DNA of 44,587 nucleotides, taken from IMG/VR virus record IMGVR_UViG_3300030329_004103, positions 1 through 44,587 of that record; one strand, given 5' to 3'. The position numbers and the translations under genes are program-made. Source of the DNA: a virus. Position 1 is the first letter of the stretch; each line of letters begins with the position of its first letter. The notes beneath the pieces are model-generated. The model did not search any database. It worked only from the letters and a program-made list of their open reading frames with translations, and was not told where the DNA came from. This document shows, one piece after another, positions 1,244-44,587 of this stretch.

Positions 1244-1624
1244 ATGAAAATCACAAAATCCCAACTTAAACAGATTATCAAGGAAGAGCTTGAAAGTACA
1301 TTAAGCGAAGTTTATAACCTTCCCGGCTCTGTTTATGATTCTGAAGGAGAGCCTGAGATTGCATCTCCTTATAGAAAGAAACCAAAAAGAAGCTATGGAA
1401 GCGGAATCTCATCTGTCGACAAGCCGCGCCCTCCTCAAAGCGCAGAAGACAAAGCAATTAGTATGTATAAAGGGGTTTTACAGGGGTATTTGACAGACCC
1501 AAATACGGCAAGAAGACTTGGCCGGCCACCAACGTTGGAAGATGCCCTTAGAGCATTTATTTCTAATAGCCCTGAACTTATACAAAGAGCGGCTGATGAA
1601 CTTGAACAAGAAATGGAGCAATAA
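1244..1624 (+). CDS. Small protein with N-terminal capsid-targeting-like module
   Basis: This 126-residue protein starts with the same module, ending L-S-E at residues 20-22. It is followed by a Pro/Tyr/Ser-rich, probably disordered stretch to about residue 65, then a helical C-terminal domain ending in an acidic tail (ELEQEMEQ). The first 16 codons are nearly identical at the DNA level to those at 1018, although the mature parts are unrelated; this indicates exchange of a leader module. Its stop overlaps the start of the FtsZ-like gene by one base (TAATG), suggesting translational coupling. Unknown function; candidate packaged protein. Confidence 0.75.
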   Translation: MKITKSQLKQIIKEELESTLSEVYNLPGSVYDSEGEPEIASPYRKKPKRSYGSGISSVDKPRPPQSAEDKAISMYKGVLQGYLTDPNTARRLGRPPTLEDALRAFISNSPELIQRAADELEQEMEQ

Positions 1625-2763
1625 TGAGCAATAAAGAAAAAGATAATGAATTTGATTTTCTGCCCCCTGCAGAACCGCCACCCTCCTTTAATCAGGAGAA
1701 AGACCACTATCACGAAGAAGTCGCAGCAGCAGATTTCGGAATGGTTGAGGACTTTGGATTGCAGATGGAATACTCTGATGAAGATCTCCTCCCAGAAAAC
1801 ACTGCTCCTTCGTCTATTAACGTAGGCTTTGTTGGTGTCGGCGGTGGAGGTAATAAAATGGCCAATGCTTTTCTAGAACTTGGCTTCAACAAGACTCTGC
1901 TAGTGAATTCCACAGGCAAAGACATCCCAAAGAACGTGGAAGAAGATCACGTTGTTCTTATTCCTGATAGCGACGGCATCGGGAAGAACGTAGATTATGG
2001 TAAAGAGGTTTTCTCTACCAACGGCGCAATCGTAGAGGATGCATTGCGGATCAAACTTGGAAAGGTAGACTGGCTGTTTGTTTTAGCTGGTGGCGGCGGC
2101 GGAACTGGTAGTTCTGTGACTGCACTTCATCCGGTATTCGAACGCTATATGAAATCCGTTCAATCTTCTGGAAAAGTAGTGTATATTGTTTCCTGGCCCA
2201 CAGCACAAGAAAACCTTAACCCCACAATCGCTCGCAATGCGTTGACGCTGGCTAATGACGTAGCCAAGCATCCTCACATCATTCTTGATAACGAGCGCTC
2301 CACTCGCTTACTTCGCGGCAGAATTGGCATGCTTGGTATGTACCCTGTCGCCAACACACAATTTGCTAAGTCATTCGCCCAGGTGCTTAAACTCTCCACG
2401 GAGGATTCACCGATCCAATCTTTTGATAGTAAAGATCTGGAAACATGCTTGGGCAATGACGGGAGAGCTTTTCTCGGCTCGACCATGATAAAAGACCCAA
2501 ATACTGGAAAGCTTGGATCGGTGATCCTACACAACTGTATGAACAGATCAGCCTGCCCGCCACCTAAAGGAAAAGCCGCAGCCGGCTCCCTAATCTTGGT
2601 GGCATCTGAGGAAATGGTGGCAGATCCAAGAGTCAGCAAAAACATTGAGTCGGCAATCGCTTATGTCGGCGGTCGGTGCGAGACACTATTTTCTGGCGTT
2701 TACGTGCGCAAGAATGTGCCTGGATTGATTGCGATACTAAGTATGAATGGATTAGCAACATAA
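1624..2763 (+). CDS. FtsZ/tubulin-superfamily GTPase (phage tubulin-like)
   Basis: This 379-residue protein has an acidic, Pro-rich N-terminal extension (1-63) followed by a full FtsZ-like core. The first glycine loop is GVGGGGNK (71-78). The tubulin signature is AGGGGGTGSS (155-164). Next come NPTIARNALTLAN (199-211) and a DN-containing segment (DNERST, 222-227). The T7-loop region FDSKDLETCLGNDGRAFLGS (267-286) aligns with the FtsZ DFADVRTVM...ALMG segment and keeps two Asp. The second domain follows (320-379). The chain stops right after the last core strand, without the FtsZ linker and C-terminal peptide that bind FtsA/ZipA, so host divisome recruitment by that route is unlikely. It should bind GTP and polymerise. 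It is embedded among MKITK-module genes. Role (virion positioning, a cytoskeletal scaffold, or division interference) is open. Confidence 0.88.
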   Translation: MSNKEKDNEFDFLPPAEPPPSFNQEKDHYHEEVAAADFGMVEDFGLQMEYSDEDLLPENTAPSSINVGFVGVGGGGNKMANAFLELGFNKTLLVNSTGKDIPKNVEEDHVVLIPDSDGIGKNVDYGKEVFSTNGAIVEDALRIKLGKVDWLFVLAGGGGGTGSSVTALHPVFERYMKSVQSSGKVVYIVSWPTAQENLNPTIARNALTLANDVAKHPHIILDNERSTRLLRGRIGMLGMYPVANTQFAKSFAQVLKLSTEDSPIQSFDSKDLETCLGNDGRAFLGSTMIKDPNTGKLGSVILHNCMNRSACPPPKGKAAAGSLILVASEEMVADPRVSKNIESAIAYVGGRCETLFSGVYVRKNVPGLIAILSMNGLAT

Positions 2764-33529: not shown

Positions 33530-34726
33530 ATGGCATTTAAACGTTCTAACTTTCATATACACAAGTGGGCTCAAAGTCCTATATCGCGCAAAAGTCAAAC
33601 CGGTACCAACACCCTTAAGCGCAACAGCAAGATGTTTAGAGGGACCGACGCCCTTGCCAATAAAGGCCAAGTCATTTATTTCCATAGGCCGAATCCGCTG
33701 GTTGATAATGAAGTGACAAATCCTAACAAGCTGGCATTATTAGGAGAGGCGCCGGATATATATTTTAAAGCATTTATAACTGCTTATAACGAATCATTTT
33801 CTTCTGAGTGGTCTGAAGAAACAGTGATAGGTCGCGCCGATGGACTTCACATGTTTAAGGCCACAAGTCGTGCGGTGTCTTTGGGTTTTCAAGCACCAGC
33901 AGCAACCCAGAGCGAAGCTTTTGAAAATTTGCTATCATTGCAATCATTAATAAGAATGCTGTACCCCTCTTATACAGATGGGCATAACGCACTTTCGATT
34001 TCGCAATCTCCTTTAGTGCGAGTAAAAATCATGAACATGCTAATAGATAGTTCAGGTCGTGATGAAACAAGCGAGAACGTTCTGTATGGAGGAAGCTCAA
34101 CGTCTCGCGGCGTTTTGGTAGCAGTTAAGAATATTACCGTAGGATATAATCTTGAGAACGATACAGGAGTTATTGAGATTACTGAAAATTCATTAAATCA
34201 GATGTTAAAAGACGGGGGCGGACCCCGTGTGCGCGGCGATGGAGAAGAGCGCACTGGTTCCATAACCGGAGGCACTAAAAAAATACTCCCAAAATTATTA
34301 GACATCAATATGGAGCTTGATATCATTCACGAGTCTTTTCTCGGCTGGACTCATACTGGGATATACGATGAAGAAGGGGACGACACCTACGGTCCCATAT
34401 TTGCCAACGGTACTATAGGGGCCGATGGAGAGCCAATGAACAAGCGTTTTGATATGGAATTCTCAACGTATGATGGACCAAATACAACTACAAAACATAA
34501 CATTAACTTTCCATATGGTTTAGGTGATGGGACGAATAGTGAAGACAGCTTTGCTTCAACCACTGTCACAGAGCCGACTAGCTTGTCATCATCTCCGACT
34601 GATCCAGATTTTGTGGGCCCACCTCAAGCATCAAATTTGGGAACATCTGAAGATGCAGATGAGGCAAATCTAACTGCCTCTTGGTCTGAGTTTGGGATTA
34701 GTGTAGATAAAGGAGGAATAGCGTAA
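33530..34726 (+). CDS. Baseplate/tail-tip protein, paralog A
   Basis: A 398-residue protein sharing with its downstream neighbour the blocks FITAYNESFSSEWSEETVIGRADG, SLQSLIRMLYPSY, SQSPLVRVKIMNML and LPKLLDINMELDIIHESFLGW. The N-terminus is basic (MAFKRSNFHIHKWAQSP) and the C-terminus is acidic and disordered. The position after the tape measure suggests a baseplate hub or tube-cap role (compare T4 gp48/gp54), but I cannot show homology. The pair is probably an old tandem duplication. Confidence 0.65.
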   Translation: MAFKRSNFHIHKWAQSPISRKSQTGTNTLKRNSKMFRGTDALANKGQVIYFHRPNPLVDNEVTNPNKLALLGEAPDIYFKAFITAYNESFSSEWSEETVIGRADGLHMFKATSRAVSLGFQAPAATQSEAFENLLSLQSLIRMLYPSYTDGHNALSISQSPLVRVKIMNMLIDSSGRDETSENVLYGGSSTSRGVLVAVKNITVGYNLENDTGVIEITENSLNQMLKDGGGPRVRGDGEERTGSITGGTKKILPKLLDINMELDIIHESFLGWTHTGIYDEEGDDTYGPIFANGTIGADGEPMNKRFDMEFSTYDGPNTTTKHNINFPYGLGDGTNSEDSFASTTVTEPTSLSSSPTDPDFVGPPQASNLGTSEDADEANLTASWSEFGISVDKGGIA

Positions 34727-34727
34727 A

Positions 34728-35873
34728 ATGTATATTGATGCGCCAGCGAAAAGCTTTAATGATGGTCTTGGTATTTCTTTTTATCATGTTTTAAGTCGAA
34801 AATCAGTTGGATTTCCTGCATTTATTACAGCATTTAATGAAACCTTTAACTGCGACTGGAACACACAAAGTATATATGGCCGCGCCGATCCAGTTCACAC
34901 CTACAAAAATACAAAAAGAGCGATTACAATTGGGTTTAAGATGCCAGCTGCATCTGCTAACGGCGCATATGGTAATCTTAAATCATTGCAGCGTTTTCTT
35001 CAATTTCTGTATCCTGGATATGAAAAGGTAGAAGATAGAATCAACAATATAAGCGCTGATAACTTACCTGTCCATATTCGCGAAAGAGCTTATCAGCAAG
35101 CTGGGCTCGATCCGCATGAAAGAAATATTCTTCACGACGGCGCCGATCGGCTTTTGCATCTAAAATATAAAATGAAAAATTCTTCTGTCTATACAATTGC
35201 TCAGTCGCCTTTGGTGCGATTAAAGGTAATGAATCTAACACAAGACCGCTCCCAATATAATGGTGAAACTTTTTCCTCTTTTTTTGCTAACGCCGGCGTA
35301 TGGGATCCATCGCGAGGCCTCCTAGGTTACATAAAAAATGTGTCAATTTCGCACAATCTTGAAACTGATGTTGGGGTTGTAGAAGGCGCCGGATCCGGCT
35401 TTACTGAGCCGCATATACTTCCTAAATTAATTGATGTCACGGTAGATTTTGTAGCAATTCATGAGCACCACTTAGGATGGAATCCTATTTCGTCACAAAG
35501 AGCAGCAAAGATCCGCTCCACAAACGAAGAAAAATATGCAGATACAACATCTGGGCCCGGCGCAGATCTGGAATATGCCACTGAAGGTGAAGAAGAATAT
35601 GTTTTTCATTCCCCTTATGGGCTAAAACGCGGCCGTTATGAAGCTGCCTGGAGTGGCGTTCGCGATTATTCGCTTGGAGATAATCCATGGATTAGGGATG
35701 GTGATTATCCCACACTAGAGCATGCAATCGCAGATGATATACACAATCGCAGTTTATTGCCGGATATAAATAACAGCACATATAGTTATGGCCCAGAGCC
35801 AGGGTCTGCAGCAGCCGACGCGCAGCGCGCCCAAGCTGCCGCAAATGCAGCTTCGGTTAAAAAAGGTAAATGA
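34728..35873 (+). CDS. Baseplate/tail-tip protein, paralog B
   Basis: This 381-residue paralog of the preceding gene has matching blocks FITAFNETFNCDWNTQSIYGRAD, SLQRFLQFLYPGY, AQSPLVRLKVMNL and LPKLIDVTVDFVAIHEHHLGW. It has a different middle insertion (about 110-165) and an Ala-rich C-terminus ending KKGK. It starts one base after the upstream stop. Two related proteins in tandem fit stacked rings at the tube-baseplate junction; this is inference. Confidence 0.65.
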   Translation: MYIDAPAKSFNDGLGISFYHVLSRKSVGFPAFITAFNETFNCDWNTQSIYGRADPVHTYKNTKRAITIGFKMPAASANGAYGNLKSLQRFLQFLYPGYEKVEDRINNISADNLPVHIRERAYQQAGLDPHERNILHDGADRLLHLKYKMKNSSVYTIAQSPLVRLKVMNLTQDRSQYNGETFSSFFANAGVWDPSRGLLGYIKNVSISHNLETDVGVVEGAGSGFTEPHILPKLIDVTVDFVAIHEHHLGWNPISSQRAAKIRSTNEEKYADTTSGPGADLEYATEGEEEYVFHSPYGLKRGRYEAAWSGVRDYSLGDNPWIRDGDYPTLEHAIADDIHNRSLLPDINNSTYSYGPEPGSAAADAQRAQAAANAASVKKGK

Positions 35874-40671: not shown

Positions 40672-42036
40672 ATGGCATTAGAAGAAATAGTTGAAGGCGG
40701 CGCCGCAAAGTCGAATTCAGAAGGAAGCAGAGCTTTGTTTTACAAAAGGCTGGCACTTAAAGCGCACATTTTAAGACAAAATAAAGCCCTTGGTGTGAAA
40801 AATATTATAGATTTTAATACTGGAGAAAAACTTTTTTACGGACGCATGAATTATGAATCAATGTCGATATCCTTGAGAAGAAACGCTAACTTAAAGTCGA
40901 TAGCTGCATCGAACAATACAGTTCAGCCGGCAATGGTTTTGCCTTTTGTTGCTGACTTGTTTAATGAAATGGTGCTAGTTTTTAAAAAAGCTTTGGCTCA
41001 AAATCAAATTTCTTCAAATACTCCTTATCTGTCTAACCTAAGGGCTTATAGAGGCTTTCAGTCGCCTCGCGAAGCACATGCTAAATACAAGGCTTTATTT
41101 TTAAGCAAAATAGGTAAAAAAATTCGCAGCCTGAATCCTACTTTTTCTACTCTAGATGAATTTGTGCCTGTTTTTATGAATCATTATGGGGCCACTTTGG
41201 GAACCACCCCATTAACGTATTCAAGCTTTATTAAAAGTCGTTTTAATACTATCTTATCTTCAGGTCTTGCAATCGAAGTAGCTGATTTAGATTATTTTAA
41301 TGATGATAAGAAAATAGCAGAGTTTGTGGAATCTGATAACTGGTCGTTTTTTGTACAGGTATGCAATAACCATGGATTTATGATAGATGCACATGCTCCA
41401 TTTCGCATCGTTGCTGATTTAAATTCAAGTATAATGTTGGAGCGCGCAGGATTTTATGGATACGCTGGCGTCAAGGGGCTTTTTCAAAGAGAGTATAAAT
41501 TAGCTATAATTTTATCTATTCGAGATATGATTTCTGATTTGTTAGAGATATATAAGCACGCGACCTCTGGCACGCCTGTTGTTGAAACTGTAATGTGTGG
41601 TGATCAAATAGTTAATCGGCCGATTGTTACTAAATCGTACACACTTAGAGAAGCTTATTCTGCATTCACCATTGAAGGTCTTATCATGACCTATTGTTTT
41701 ATTAAATTAGCTGAAGTGAGGCCAACAATGGAGGACACAAAAAAACAAAAGCTTTTAAGAGATATTAGGGATTTATATGCTGCGTATCGTTCTTTGACAG
41801 TGCCTCTTATTTATTTTGAAGAATTAATATCAAAAACATTTGACAGCATAGGATCATTCAGTTATTATAAGAAAACTGCGCCCGCAAAACTGCAAGCACT
41901 GTTCGATAGTGGCAAAATAGATGCTATTGAAATGGAAACTGCAGTTGAGCAACGCTCTACAGGAAACTTTTTAGGAACATCTTACATGTCTACTGACGGC
42001 GGGGGAAGTTCTGGCACCGGAGGAGGTGGTTATTGA
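40672..42036 (+). CDS. Baseplate-region virion protein, unknown
   Basis: This 454-residue, mainly helical protein ends in a Gly-rich tail (GGGSSGTGGGGY). It has several aromatic-rich segments (YKRLALKAHILRQNKAL, IKSRFNTILSSGLAIEVADLDYF) but no motif I can name. It has a good SD (GAGGAG) and follows the giant baseplate gene. The 3' end overlaps the polymerase gene start, and the codons for its Gly tail supply that gene's ribosome-binding site. Probably structural. Confidence 0.6.
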   Translation: MALEEIVEGGAAKSNSEGSRALFYKRLALKAHILRQNKALGVKNIIDFNTGEKLFYGRMNYESMSISLRRNANLKSIAASNNTVQPAMVLPFVADLFNEMVLVFKKALAQNQISSNTPYLSNLRAYRGFQSPREAHAKYKALFLSKIGKKIRSLNPTFSTLDEFVPVFMNHYGATLGTTPLTYSSFIKSRFNTILSSGLAIEVADLDYFNDDKKIAEFVESDNWSFFVQVCNNHGFMIDAHAPFRIVADLNSSIMLERAGFYGYAGVKGLFQREYKLAIILSIRDMISDLLEIYKHATSGTPVVETVMCGDQIVNRPIVTKSYTLREAYSAFTIEGLIMTYCFIKLAEVRPTMEDTKKQKLLRDIRDLYAAYRSLTVPLIYFEELISKTFDSIGSFSYYKKTAPAKLQALFDSGKIDAIEMETAVEQRSTGNFLGTSYMSTDGGGSSGTGGGGY

Positions 42037-43208
42037 TATTCCAAGCACTTGACGATAAGTCAGAATGTATCGGAATTTACGCAGACGGCAAGCTATCGTT
42101 TGAAGATTTTCCAGAAAATTTAACAAAAACGTGGCGCTATAGTGGCTCTATTACAAATCCATCGGTGGAGTATGCCTGGATACGTGCTGGAGGCCGCAAT
42201 ATTGCCGATTGCTGTCCAGAAGATTTATGCAATGAACTTCAAGCTACGATAAGAAAAATGAAGGCTTATTTGAAGTCTTTCAAAATTGCCAAAGTTAACA
42301 TGGCAGATCATTGTGTGTTTGATTTGATCCCTCACGATTTTCTTGTGCAGTTCTGCGAGATTAAAAACAAGATTACTGAACACGTATTTGAGACTTATGA
42401 GAAACCAGATAACTATGAACACTTAGACGCGGTATACAAGCTGCTGCATAAGATCCGCTACCAGCGCCTTAATCTAAATAGCGAAGATTGCAAGCATTTG
42501 TTTTATTCTTCCATGAATCGTCAAAAGATTCAAGAACTGATGAAAAACTATAGACGCATTGATTATAACATGTTTGGCACAATCACAGGGCGCCTTACAA
42601 CGCATCCAGAATCTTTTCCCATTTTGAACATTAAAAAGGATTTGCGCCGAATAATCAAGCCTCACAACGACTTGATGATGAGTCTTGATTATAACGGCGC
42701 AGAGATTCGCACATTGTTGGATTTATGTGGTCAACAACAGCCAGAATATGATATTCACGAATGGAATATACAAAATGTAATCAATGATCTTGAGATGACG
42801 CGCACTGAAGCAAAACTGTATTTTTTCGCTTGGCTGTATAATCCTGAATCAAATGACATTGAGTCTGAACATTATGATCGCGAAAAGGTGCTTGACAAAC
42901 ATTACAAAGACGGCTATATTCATACTCCGTATGGGCGCAAAATTAAAGTAGAGCAGAGGAAGGCGTTAAACTATTTAATCCAAAGCACGACTGCTGATAG
43001 GGTATTGGAAAAGGCCGTTTTAATAGACAAGATGCTTGAAGGTAAAAAATCATTTATTTCACACATCATACATGATGAGATAGTTATCGACTATAGTGAC
43101 GAAGATCGAGATATGGTAGTTGGTATCCGTGATGTTTTTGAAGATGGCTACTTGTCTAACTTAAGAGCAGGAAAAGATTATTTTAATCTAAATGAGTTAA
43201 AGTTATGA
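42033..43208 (+). CDS. Reduced family A DNA polymerase
   Basis: A 391-residue protein with the polymerase core of the Pol I family. TGRLTTHPESFPILNI (185-200) corresponds to TGRLSS...PNLQNIP. Motif A is MSLDYNGAEIR (Asp219). The O-helix is TRTEAKLYFFAWLYNP (256-271, Arg257 and Lys261). Next comes TPYGRKIKVEQRKALNYLIQSTTAD (298-322). Motif C is IIHDEIVID (His347-Asp348-Glu349). All key catalytic residues appear present. There is no 3'-5' exonuclease domain, and the N-terminal ~170 residues are short. The start is TTG overlapping the upstream stop (TTGA), with GGAGGAGGTGG just before. T4-type phages normally use a family B polymerase, so this enzyme in a structural-gene tail is unusual. Confidence 0.85.
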   Translation: MIFQALDDKSECIGIYADGKLSFEDFPENLTKTWRYSGSITNPSVEYAWIRAGGRNIADCCPEDLCNELQATIRKMKAYLKSFKIAKVNMADHCVFDLIPHDFLVQFCEIKNKITEHVFETYEKPDNYEHLDAVYKLLHKIRYQRLNLNSEDCKHLFYSSMNRQKIQELMKNYRRIDYNMFGTITGRLTTHPESFPILNIKKDLRRIIKPHNDLMMSLDYNGAEIRTLLDLCGQQQPEYDIHEWNIQNVINDLEMTRTEAKLYFFAWLYNPESNDIESEHYDREKVLDKHYKDGYIHTPYGRKIKVEQRKALNYLIQSTTADRVLEKAVLIDKMLEGKKSFISHIIHDEIVIDYSDEDRDMVVGIRDVFEDGYLSNLRAGKDYFNLNELKL

Positions 43209-44044
43209 TTTCTATTGTTGGTTTAGGTACCGCCGCTTCACGCATCGCCGAGATGTTTAAATCTACTAAAAATTACAATGTCTATGTTTTGAATAATGAA
43301 GTAGCGCGCAGCTCTAAGTACAAATATAAACTAAAACAATATGAACAACCTGAGCAGTATGAGAAAAACATTCCAAATCTAAAAAAGTTTTTTGATAGCC
43401 TAGATGACATAGTTCAAGTTTTTATTGTTGGCTCTTCTTATAGTTCGAACTATTCTTTAGGTGTCTTAGAGCAGATTAAAGCCAAAGAAGTGCATGTTTT
43501 TTACATCAAGCCAGATGCAGAATTAATGACAGGCGTACCAAAAGTTCTTGATAAAATTGTATTTAGCGTCTTGCAACAATATTCACGTTCTGGGCTTTTG
43601 TCGTCGTTTACGGTGCTGTCAAACATACACATTGAGCAGACTATTGGCGAGATTCCTATAAAAACTTACTACGACAAGATCAATGAATCTATCTTCTCCA
43701 CTGTTCACTACATCAATTATTTTAATCATGCAGAGCCTGAAATTGGCATGACAGCTAAACCCCTGGATATCAACAGAATCCGTACATACGGAATTTTGAA
43801 CCCAATATCTCTTGAAGAAAAATGGTTTTATGAGCTTGACATGTCTCGGGATGTGTGTTATTATTTATGTATCAATAAGGACAGAATTGAAAATGAAGGA
43901 GGGTTGCATAAAAAAATCGTTGATGCGCTCAAGGAAAAGCCTAAAAACGCATTTCGACGTATTTCTTACGCAATCTATGAAACAGAATACCAAGATTTTG
44001 GGCTTTGCGTTGCCCACACTAACGCAATACAACAATACACTTGA
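43205..44044 (+). CDS. Degenerate FtsZ/tubulin-like protein
   Basis: This 279-residue protein starts with a Rossmann-type glycine loop, MISIVGLGTAASRIAEMF. At the place of the tubulin signature it has VFIVGSSYSSNYSLG (72-86) instead of GGGTGSG. A helix INESIFSTVHYINYF leads to KPLDINRIRTYGI (185-197), which aligns with the FtsZ T7 loop NLDFADVRTVM but lacks the second acidic residue. The rest matches the size of the FtsZ second domain. It therefore looks like an FtsZ-fold protein with altered nucleotide-binding and catalytic loops. Start overlaps the polymerase stop (ATGA). Possible partner or regulator of the GTPase at 1624; this is inference. Confidence 0.6.
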   Translation: MISIVGLGTAASRIAEMFKSTKNYNVYVLNNEVARSSKYKYKLKQYEQPEQYEKNIPNLKKFFDSLDDIVQVFIVGSSYSSNYSLGVLEQIKAKEVHVFYIKPDAELMTGVPKVLDKIVFSVLQQYSRSGLLSSFTVLSNIHIEQTIGEIPIKTYYDKINESIFSTVHYINYFNHAEPEIGMTAKPLDINRIRTYGILNPISLEEKWFYELDMSRDVCYYLCINKDRIENEGGLHKKIVDALKEKPKNAFRRISYAIYETEYQDFGLCVAHTNAIQQYT

Positions 44045-44069
44045 CAAGCTACGTTGAGTGTGCCACAAT
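44041..44069 (+). promoter_or_regulatory. Sigma-70-type promoter for gp32-like gene
   Basis: A perfect -35 TTGACA (44041-44046), a 17-base spacer and a -10 of CACAAT (44064-44069, 4 of 6 matches) lie 52 bases upstream of the ATG at 44121. It starts within the stop of the previous gene. It would let the host polymerase transcribe gp32 independently of the late region. Confidence 0.65.
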
Positions 44070-44120
44070 AGAAATCAAGGAAAGCTTGATTTACTTTACC
44101 CAACAACAAGGAGAAACAAA

Positions 44121-44587
44121 ATGGGAATCAATATGGAACTGATGCGACAAAAGCTCGCATCCCTTCGCGGCGAAGGAACAAAAGATAGCACTTCGGTTTG
44201 GTTCAAGCCAGATGAAGGTGACACTGACATTCGGATCGTGCCGACAGCAGATGGCGATCCGCTAAAGGAAATGTTCTTCCACTATAACGTGGGCGAGCAT
44301 CGCGGAGGTATCCTCTGTCCAAAGCGCAACTTTGGCGAGCACTGCCCCGTATGTGAATTTGCTTCTTCGCTATGGCGCGAGGGAGTTGACAACAACGATG
44401 AGGAGAGCAAGAAGCTTGCAAAGTCACTCTTTGTGCGCACTCGCTATTTCTCGCCCGTTGTTATCCGCGGCCGTGAAGACGAGGGAATTAAGGTCTACGG
44501 CTACGGAAAGCAGGCTTATGAGCTGCTCTTGGGATACATCTTGGATCCCGAGTATGGTGACATCACTGATGTGAAGGAGGGCACGGA
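44121..44587 (+). CDS. 32: gp32-like single-stranded DNA-binding protein (5' part)
   Basis: The first 155 residues run off the right edge. The sequence MGINMELMRQKLASLRGEG, VWFKPDEGDTDIRIVPTADGDP and a zinc motif region (CPKRNFGEHCPVCEFASSLW) match the N-terminal and core domains of T4-like gp32; T4 gp32 coordinates zinc with one His and three Cys. It coats ssDNA at replication and recombination intermediates. SD is AAGGAG at 44108-44113. Codon usage is biased, as for abundant proteins. It has its own sigma-70-like promoter. Confidence 0.9.
   Translation, partial: MGINMELMRQKLASLRGEGTKDSTSVWFKPDEGDTDIRIVPTADGDPLKEMFFHYNVGEHRGGILCPKRNFGEHCPVCEFASSLWREGVDNNDEESKKLAKSLFVRTRYFSPVVIRGREDEGIKVYGYGKQAYELLLGYILDPEYGDITDVKEGT

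Follow-up and report, generated by a model that had tools for sequence, protein, structure and literature searches.

A predicted tubulin-fold protein with changed T4 and T7 loops encoded in the replication operon of uncultured T4-like phages

Proteins of the tubulin/FtsZ fold combine a nucleotide domain, a central helix H7 and a C-terminal domain, with a T4 loop of signature GGGTG[ST]G and a T7 loop whose acidic pair acts on the GTP of the neighbouring subunit. Most tubulin-fold proteins that possess a complete C-terminal domain form polymers. The T7 loop is not always intact: beta-tubulin has Asp251 and Lys254, the first acid being kept and Lys254 standing in place of the catalytic acid. The two members of a tubulin pair are closely related paralogues and co-evolve; the TubZ partition system is composed of TubZ, TubR and tubS. 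According to passages of PMC3232192, eukaryotic tubulin carries an activating T7 loop on one subunit only, whereas BtubA and BtubB both keep it. For PhuZ of the nucleus-forming jumbo phages, passages of PMC7950403 describe a conserved catalytic T7 loop, mutations in which abolish GTPase activity and lead to non-dynamic filaments. The passages on FtsZl in PMC2875224 contain nothing on phages or catalysis.

The window analysed here is an entire IMG/VR viral record of 44,587 bases and represents a fragment of a T4-like phage genome, with genes for terminase, portal, head protease, major head protein, tail sheath and tail tube across its middle. The five longest related records measure 189.7-195.7 kb. 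The genes considered below, named by their start positions, are the following:

1624..2763, + strand: FtsZ-like GTPase of 379 aa, the proposed partner, with intact T1 GVGGGGN, T4 GGGTG and T7 FDSKD.
40672..42036, + strand: 454-aa protein 5' of the polymerase, overlapping it by 4 bases here; matched only phrog_20190 (unknown function), E 0.11.
42033..43208, + strand: PolA-type DNA polymerase of 391 aa (Pfam DNA_pol_A, E 1.7e-11; phrog_17, E 3.2e-17).
43205..44044, + strand: tubulin/FtsZ-fold protein of 279 aa in which the T4 and T7 loops are changed (ORF from ATG, alignments, AlphaFold2 and structural matches).
44058..44587, + strand: gp32-like ssDNA-binding protein, truncated where the contig stops (Pfam gp32, E 1.2e-10; phrog_1192, E 3.3e-20).

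The initial annotation had described 43205 as a degenerate FtsZ-like protein at the other end of a gene block from 1624; its place is in fact the end of a fragmentary contig. The motifs named there are all found in the reading frame, namely GLGTAAS (residues 6-12), GSSYSSN (76-82) and PLDINRIRT (186-194). Searching IMG/VR for relatives of the protein yielded 21 loci with the single sequence, 368 with a profile and at least 592 with a second profile; they align over the full length, with identity to the window down to 46%. With so many full-length relatives, the frame is not a chance ORF, and a pseudogene is ruled out by 124 distinct intact proteins. These were obtained from 162 proteins that entered the alignment. 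Left out before counting were L262 (ambiguous residue), L010, L016, L018, L020, L021, L255, L257, L258 and L263 (partial, ambiguous or duplicate) and loci on contigs already represented. Within a T4-like phage lineage with genomes of about 190-196 kb, the gene belongs to the core set.

Sequence libraries gave little indication of the family. The Pfam Tubulin profile (PF00091) did not match the 43205 protein at E up to 10; in nine related records it matched one place each, inside the 1624-type gene wherever gene coordinates exist. Pfam and PHROGs searches with the protein returned sub-threshold matches only. Of these, a Rossmann dehydrogenase or CoA-binding domain (weak Pfam matches, E 0.05-0.14) was rejected, as the structural matches span both tubulin domains, and Uteroglobin (Pfam E 0.0022, below the cut-off) was regarded as a short helical chance match. 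The protein's profile found nothing credible among PDB sequences, and its local hhalign comparison reached a probability of 0.7% with FtsZ alone and 2.3% with FtsZ plus phage sequences. A pattern-based search of cellular genome contigs, suited to close relatives only, found no relative of the 43205 or the 1624 protein, and cultured phages contained no 43205 relative at E up to 1. The capsids of phages Mel-JY01 and immuto are among the closest to those of this lineage in the phage collection; neither phage matched the 43205-type or the 1624-type profile, and their SSB neighbourhoods hold no 43205-type gene by annotation.

The predicted structure was far more informative. An AlphaFold2 model, calculated from a 26-sequence alignment of relatives 46-80% identical to the window and without FtsZ, reached a pLDDT of 89.2 and a pTM of 0.89. 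The best 50 Foldseek matches listed from the PDB were all FtsZ, TubZ or CetZ (best E 2.6e-12, TM 0.70). VIA-align, which is a second look at Foldseek's own list, aligned the model with CetZ (Z 23.3, rmsd 3.2, 257 residues), TubZ (Z 22.3, rmsd 3.1, 272 residues), FtsZ (Z 21.6, rmsd 3.6, 268 residues) and tubulin (Z 20.8, rmsd 3.4, 261 residues). Since these alignments span residues 1 to about 279, both tubulin domains are matched, and the predicted model shows the complete arrangement of nucleotide domain, central helix (residues 152-174, H7) and C-terminal domain. The structure prediction and comparison with FtsZ that had been proposed for this gene thus bear out its FtsZ-like assignment, and there is strong support, at the level of a model, for a divergent protein of the tubulin/FtsZ fold. 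The model has no helix H8, a strand beginning directly after R191, and contains no helix or strand beyond the last strand (residues 273-279).

The positions at which this protein can be compared with the nucleotide site and catalytic loop of its relatives are given here, with counts for the 124 proteins:

43220..43240, + strand: T1-like loop, residues 6-12, GLGTAAS; G6 in 123/124, G8 in 124/124.
43430..43450, + strand: T4 position, residues 76-82, GSSYSSN replacing GGGTGTG; G76 in 124/124.
43622..43624, + strand: Asn140, candidate guanine contact (compare N165 of E. coli FtsZ), after strand 6; Asn in 121/124.
43670..43684, + strand: residues 156-160, candidate guanine stacking and contact (compare F182 and N186 of E. 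coli FtsZ); Tyr/Phe156 and Asn160 each in 124/124.
43727..43777, + strand: T7 region, residues 175-191, with no invariant acidic residue; D/E188 in 114/124, R/K191 in 124/124.

At the T4 position, which DSSP of the model places between strand 69-75 and helix 79-89, the signature GGGTG[ST]G is absent. G76 is the sole invariant glycine and is followed by S77 (121/124) and S80 (112/124) in a G-S-S-x-S-S-N-like loop. In contrast to these changes, N140 (His in the remaining 3/124), Y/F156 and N160, which we take to be equivalents of the guanine-contacting positions of FtsZ, are kept. Residues 156 and 160 lie in the long helix H7, and the Asn-aromatic-Asn spacing equals that of Asn165, Phe182 and Asn186 in E. 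coli FtsZ within one residue. A triplet of the same type is found in the 1624 protein (Asn223, Tyr240, Asn244) and in gp138 of phage G (Asn160, Tyr176, Asn180). As the candidate base-contact positions are retained, the protein probably still binds a guanine nucleotide. This should be regarded as likely only, because the contact role is carried over from FtsZ and the register is taken from spacing together with an hhalign match below significance (the 2.3% above). The retained positions also make "altered" a better description than the "degenerate" of the initial annotation, which had been right that the loops changed. Elsewhere, T2 and T3 rank with the most variable stretches of the protein, T4, T5 and the C-terminal strands are conserved, and in the basic H10-S9 region K243, K245 and N248 are each found in 124/124.

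The T7 region lies between H7 and the next strand. Its acidic residues vary (E177 in 78/124, E179 in 63/124), and residue 191 is Arg in 103 and Lys in 21 of the relatives. Aligning PLDINRIRT with NLDFADVRT, as proposed earlier, R/K191 would replace the second catalytic Asp of FtsZ and the first would be kept. The motif itself fits this register; spacing and secondary structure do not, since 28 residues separate N160 and D188 (E. coli FtsZ, 23; the 1624 and phage G proteins, 24) and the model lacks H8. The register is thus weakened, and the exact role of R/K191 depends on it, while the missing invariant T7 acid does not. With the T4 glycines replaced and no invariant T7 acid among 124 relatives, the claim of altered nucleotide and catalytic loops stands. 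Judging from the sequences, the T7 loop of the protein has most likely lost the ability to promote GTP hydrolysis, although a weaker T7 function is possible because position 188 is acidic in 114/124.

Compared with FtsZ, TubZ and CetZ, the 43205 protein shares the full-length two-domain fold, the GxG in T1 and the Asn-aromatic-Asn spacing (that of E. coli FtsZ). Identity in the structural alignments is 8-14%. The protein is shorter than these three, has no credible profile match to them, and lacks GGGTG[ST]G, a T7 acid pair, H8 in its model and any helix or strand after the last strand. Like PhuZ, it is a phage-encoded tubulin fold (BFVD match to PhuZ of Noxifer, E 5.8e-7, TM 0.57). It differs from PhuZ at the T7 loop and in the setting of its gene, the PolA-gp32 operon of a phage that is T4-like and has terminase, portal and capsid of T4 type. 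Lacking both T4 signature and T7 acid pair, it is classed here as a tubulin-fold protein and not as FtsZ, TubZ or PhuZ. One could consider that it nonetheless is a second phage cytoskeleton, independent of 1624, which polymerises by itself and has an altered way of hydrolysing GTP. The whole two-domain fold, the kept candidate guanine-contact positions and the acidic residues at 188 (114/124) and 179 (63/124) fit such a role. We consider it decidedly unlikely, given that the canonical T4 glycines are gone, that T2 and T3 are among the most variable regions and that no acid in 175-191 is invariant.

The genomic surroundings point to replication. The polymerase stop and the start of the 43205-type gene share 4 bases (ATGA) in 120/124 relatives; for the remaining 4/124 the overlap test gave no result, apparently for too little upstream sequence. 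At a control junction, upstream of the polymerase, a 4-base overlap is found in 53/72. Such overlaps are therefore typical of these genomes, yet the polymerase-43205 junction is unusually constant, and the 43205 protein is probably translated together with the polymerase. The polymerase is intact, with motif A in 84/86 and HDE in 86/86 sequences scanned. A gp32-like start, which relatives suggest to be at 44121 in the window, follows the 43205-type gene in 96/124 and was not found or was off the locus in 28. Upstream, the 454-aa protein matched nothing in Pfam or the PDB. Further on in the operon, relative G001 encodes a UvsX-like protein, an endonuclease, an exonuclease, a DnaB-like protein, a ribonucleotide reductase and, in addition to the PolA-type enzyme, a large DNA polymerase. 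The 43205 gene thus belongs to the phage replication operon, with PolA and gp32 as its neighbours; a TubZ partition system would be marked by a neighbouring TubR and centromere repeats. It was also noted that a relative carries a large second DNA polymerase besides the 391-aa PolA-type enzyme (L292:5381-8848, - strand; phrog_405, 1156 aa).

Divergence was compared over 11 genomes (55 pairs, 2000 permutations). The identity of the 43205 protein follows that of the PolA-type polymerase (r 0.63, 0/2000 permutations as high) and, less closely, that of gp32 (r 0.37, 57/2000). It should be noted that the correlation with PolA may reflect linkage only, as adjacent genes share ancestry and PolA and gp32 correlate as well (r 0.61).

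Our preferred reading as a whole, which we hold tentatively and at somewhat less than an even chance, is that of a hydrolysis-impaired, guanine-binding tubulin-fold protein acting as a static scaffold or accessory of phage replication. The protein would be co-translated with the PolA-type polymerase from the replication operon and would keep its guanine nucleotide without T7-driven hydrolysis. It would not be a dynamic filament motor; with its nucleotide bound, it would have a static role as scaffold or accessory subunit, organising or anchoring the polymerase or the replication site. The link to replication is supported by the PolA and gp32 neighbours, the constant overlap and the divergence that tracks PolA, and the static role by the precedent of the PhuZ T7 mutants in the passages of PMC7950403.

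The operon, the overlap and the correlated divergence with PolA would also suit a monomer that senses nucleotides or serves the polymerase as an accessory subunit, in which the tubulin fold serves as a nucleotide-binding domain only and never polymerises; conserved T4, T5 and C-terminal strands next to variable T2 and T3 are also consistent with it. We can name no precedent for a monomeric, never-polymerising tubulin-fold accessory of a polymerase, and the full C-terminal domain is mostly a mark of polymerising proteins, so that this possibility appears rather unlikely.

The initial annotation had gone further and paired the protein with 1624 in a two-component filament. The description of 1624 itself as intact is correct, as T1, T4 and T7 are complete and its relation to FtsZ is detectable by sequence. 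It matches Pfam Tubulin at E 3.7e-7, but with 31 bits against a cut-off of 33, and a PDB profile search identifies it as an FtsZ relative (E 2.7e-9; hhalign probability 97.7%). Its T7 residues D268 and D271 are aligned by hhalign to both Asp of NVDFADV in E. coli. Its structure model is poor (pLDDT 55.6) and served fold matching only. The 1624-type proteins and gp138 of phage G share with 43205 the tubulin superfamily and the Asn-Tyr-Asn spacing, and 1624 differs from 43205 in its intact loops, its sequence-detectable relation to FtsZ and its far slower evolution. With 89.5% (G004) and 95.0% (G001), its identity is the highest among the longer proteins of the window; for comparison, the terminase shows 77% and 86% and gp32 81% and 91% in the same two relatives. 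A close paralogy of 43205 and 1624 found no support (hhalign probability 0.9%). It was also observed that 1624 is better conserved than the capsid in these two relatives and that about 60 residues at its N-terminus form a conserved acidic tail (pI 4.1).

The survey of correlated presence proposed earlier gave a mixed answer. A 43205-type gene is found in 7/13 records identified through 1624, and a 1624-type gene in 4/7 records identified through 43205. All 9 records without the second gene end before its expected place, their sequence extending no more than 35.4 kb downstream of 1624 or 20.5 kb upstream of the 43205-type gene. Co-occurrence is thus complete in contigs of sufficient length, and there is no demonstrable absence of either gene in this lineage. 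In all records with both genes, as in the window, the 43205-type gene is downstream of 1624 on the same strand, at a distance of 38.8-45.0 kb (11 with both starts measurable; G002 and G003 were measured across the record ends, and in G015 1624 is cut by the contig end). As a side observation, the 1624-type gene of record G003 (194,231 bases; L202, L204) spans both record ends (193199-194230 and 3-92), and this genome therefore looks circular or circularly permuted, with about 194 kb. The survey covers a single lineage, in which each of the two is simply a core gene, so that co-occurrence says little about pairing. Outside it, Bacillus phage G has a 1624-type protein (gp138, E 4.6e-16) without a convincing relative of 43205 in the profile search, in which one 51-residue piece (E 0.0047, 14.5 bits) was taken as a chance match.

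Other data speak against the pairing. The two genes lie in different modules and operons, their identities do not correlate (r 0.06, 702/2000 permutations as high), and the 43205 protein has a mean identity of 58% in the same 11 genomes, compared with 91% for 1624. As 1624 varies so little, the lack of correlation is not a strong argument against pairing. With eukaryotic tubulin the pair would have in common that only one subunit carries an activating T7 loop. Unlike alpha/beta-tubulin and BtubA/B, however, 43205 and 1624 do not align significantly and do not co-vary, and thus do not behave as a co-evolving paralogous pair.

In such a two-component filament, 1624 would polymerise and hydrolyse GTP, and 43205 would cap, anchor or stabilise it, placing a bottom face with Arg/Lys for the catalytic acid, comparable to Lys254 of beta-tubulin, on the exposed GTP of the last 1624 subunit, whose hydrolysis it would not trigger. 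The presence of both genes in all long-enough records, the conserved basic H10-S9 region and the [D/E]-x-x-[R/K] pattern at 188-191, which resembles beta-tubulin, agree with this arrangement. Since divergence is uncorrelated, the operons are separate, phage G has 1624 alone and the T7 spacing and missing H8 leave the placement of the Arg uncertain, we consider the arrangement unlikely, and the earlier proposal, derived from co-occurrence, finds no further support. A contact of 43205 with the 1624 filament is possible, co-occurrence being the one line of positive evidence. Very unlikely, in our estimate, is a split tubulin cycle, in which a hydrolysis-competent 1624 filament would carry on its GTP end, through the Arg/Lys, a hydrolysis-dead 43205 protein produced together with the polymerase. 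If true, phage replication sites would be tied to a phage filament, to our knowledge the first case of a phage cytoskeleton connected to a phage replisome.

What is known is the fold family; what appears to be new is that a phage encodes a member with an altered T7 loop in the operon of PolA and gp32. We know of no tubulin relative in such a replication operon. Our literature search, covering open-access papers only, found no report of a phage tubulin-fold protein with a changed T7 loop in this setting. Widespread uncultured T4-like phages thus have a core gene for a tubulin-fold protein that every sequence library used had missed, and they carry two genes of the tubulin superfamily, 43205 and the highly conserved 1624. 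If the link to replication holds, the tubulin fold would be used here outside filament dynamics, and this raises the question whether a T7-dead tubulin relative can be the static partner of a polymerase or cap another filament.

Several minor observations were made along the way. Four short genes around 1624 (window positions 1018, 1244, 2775 and 2987) share a near-identical start, [M/V]KITKS[Q/E]LKQIIKEE, and a weaker copy may open the gene at 533-970. By a strict pattern, this leader is found within 4 kb of 1624 in 11/19 relatives examined; we take it to resemble a capsid-targeting or protease-cleaved leader, and alternatively it resembles a shared docking peptide. A Marinomonas plasmid encodes an FtsZ-like protein annotated as hypothetical (L305:61-1023), with 34% identity to E. 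coli FtsZ. Near the tail genes, the adjoining proteins at window positions 33530-34726 and 34728-35873 match one and the same stretch in both G004 and G001 and therefore look like tandem paralogues.
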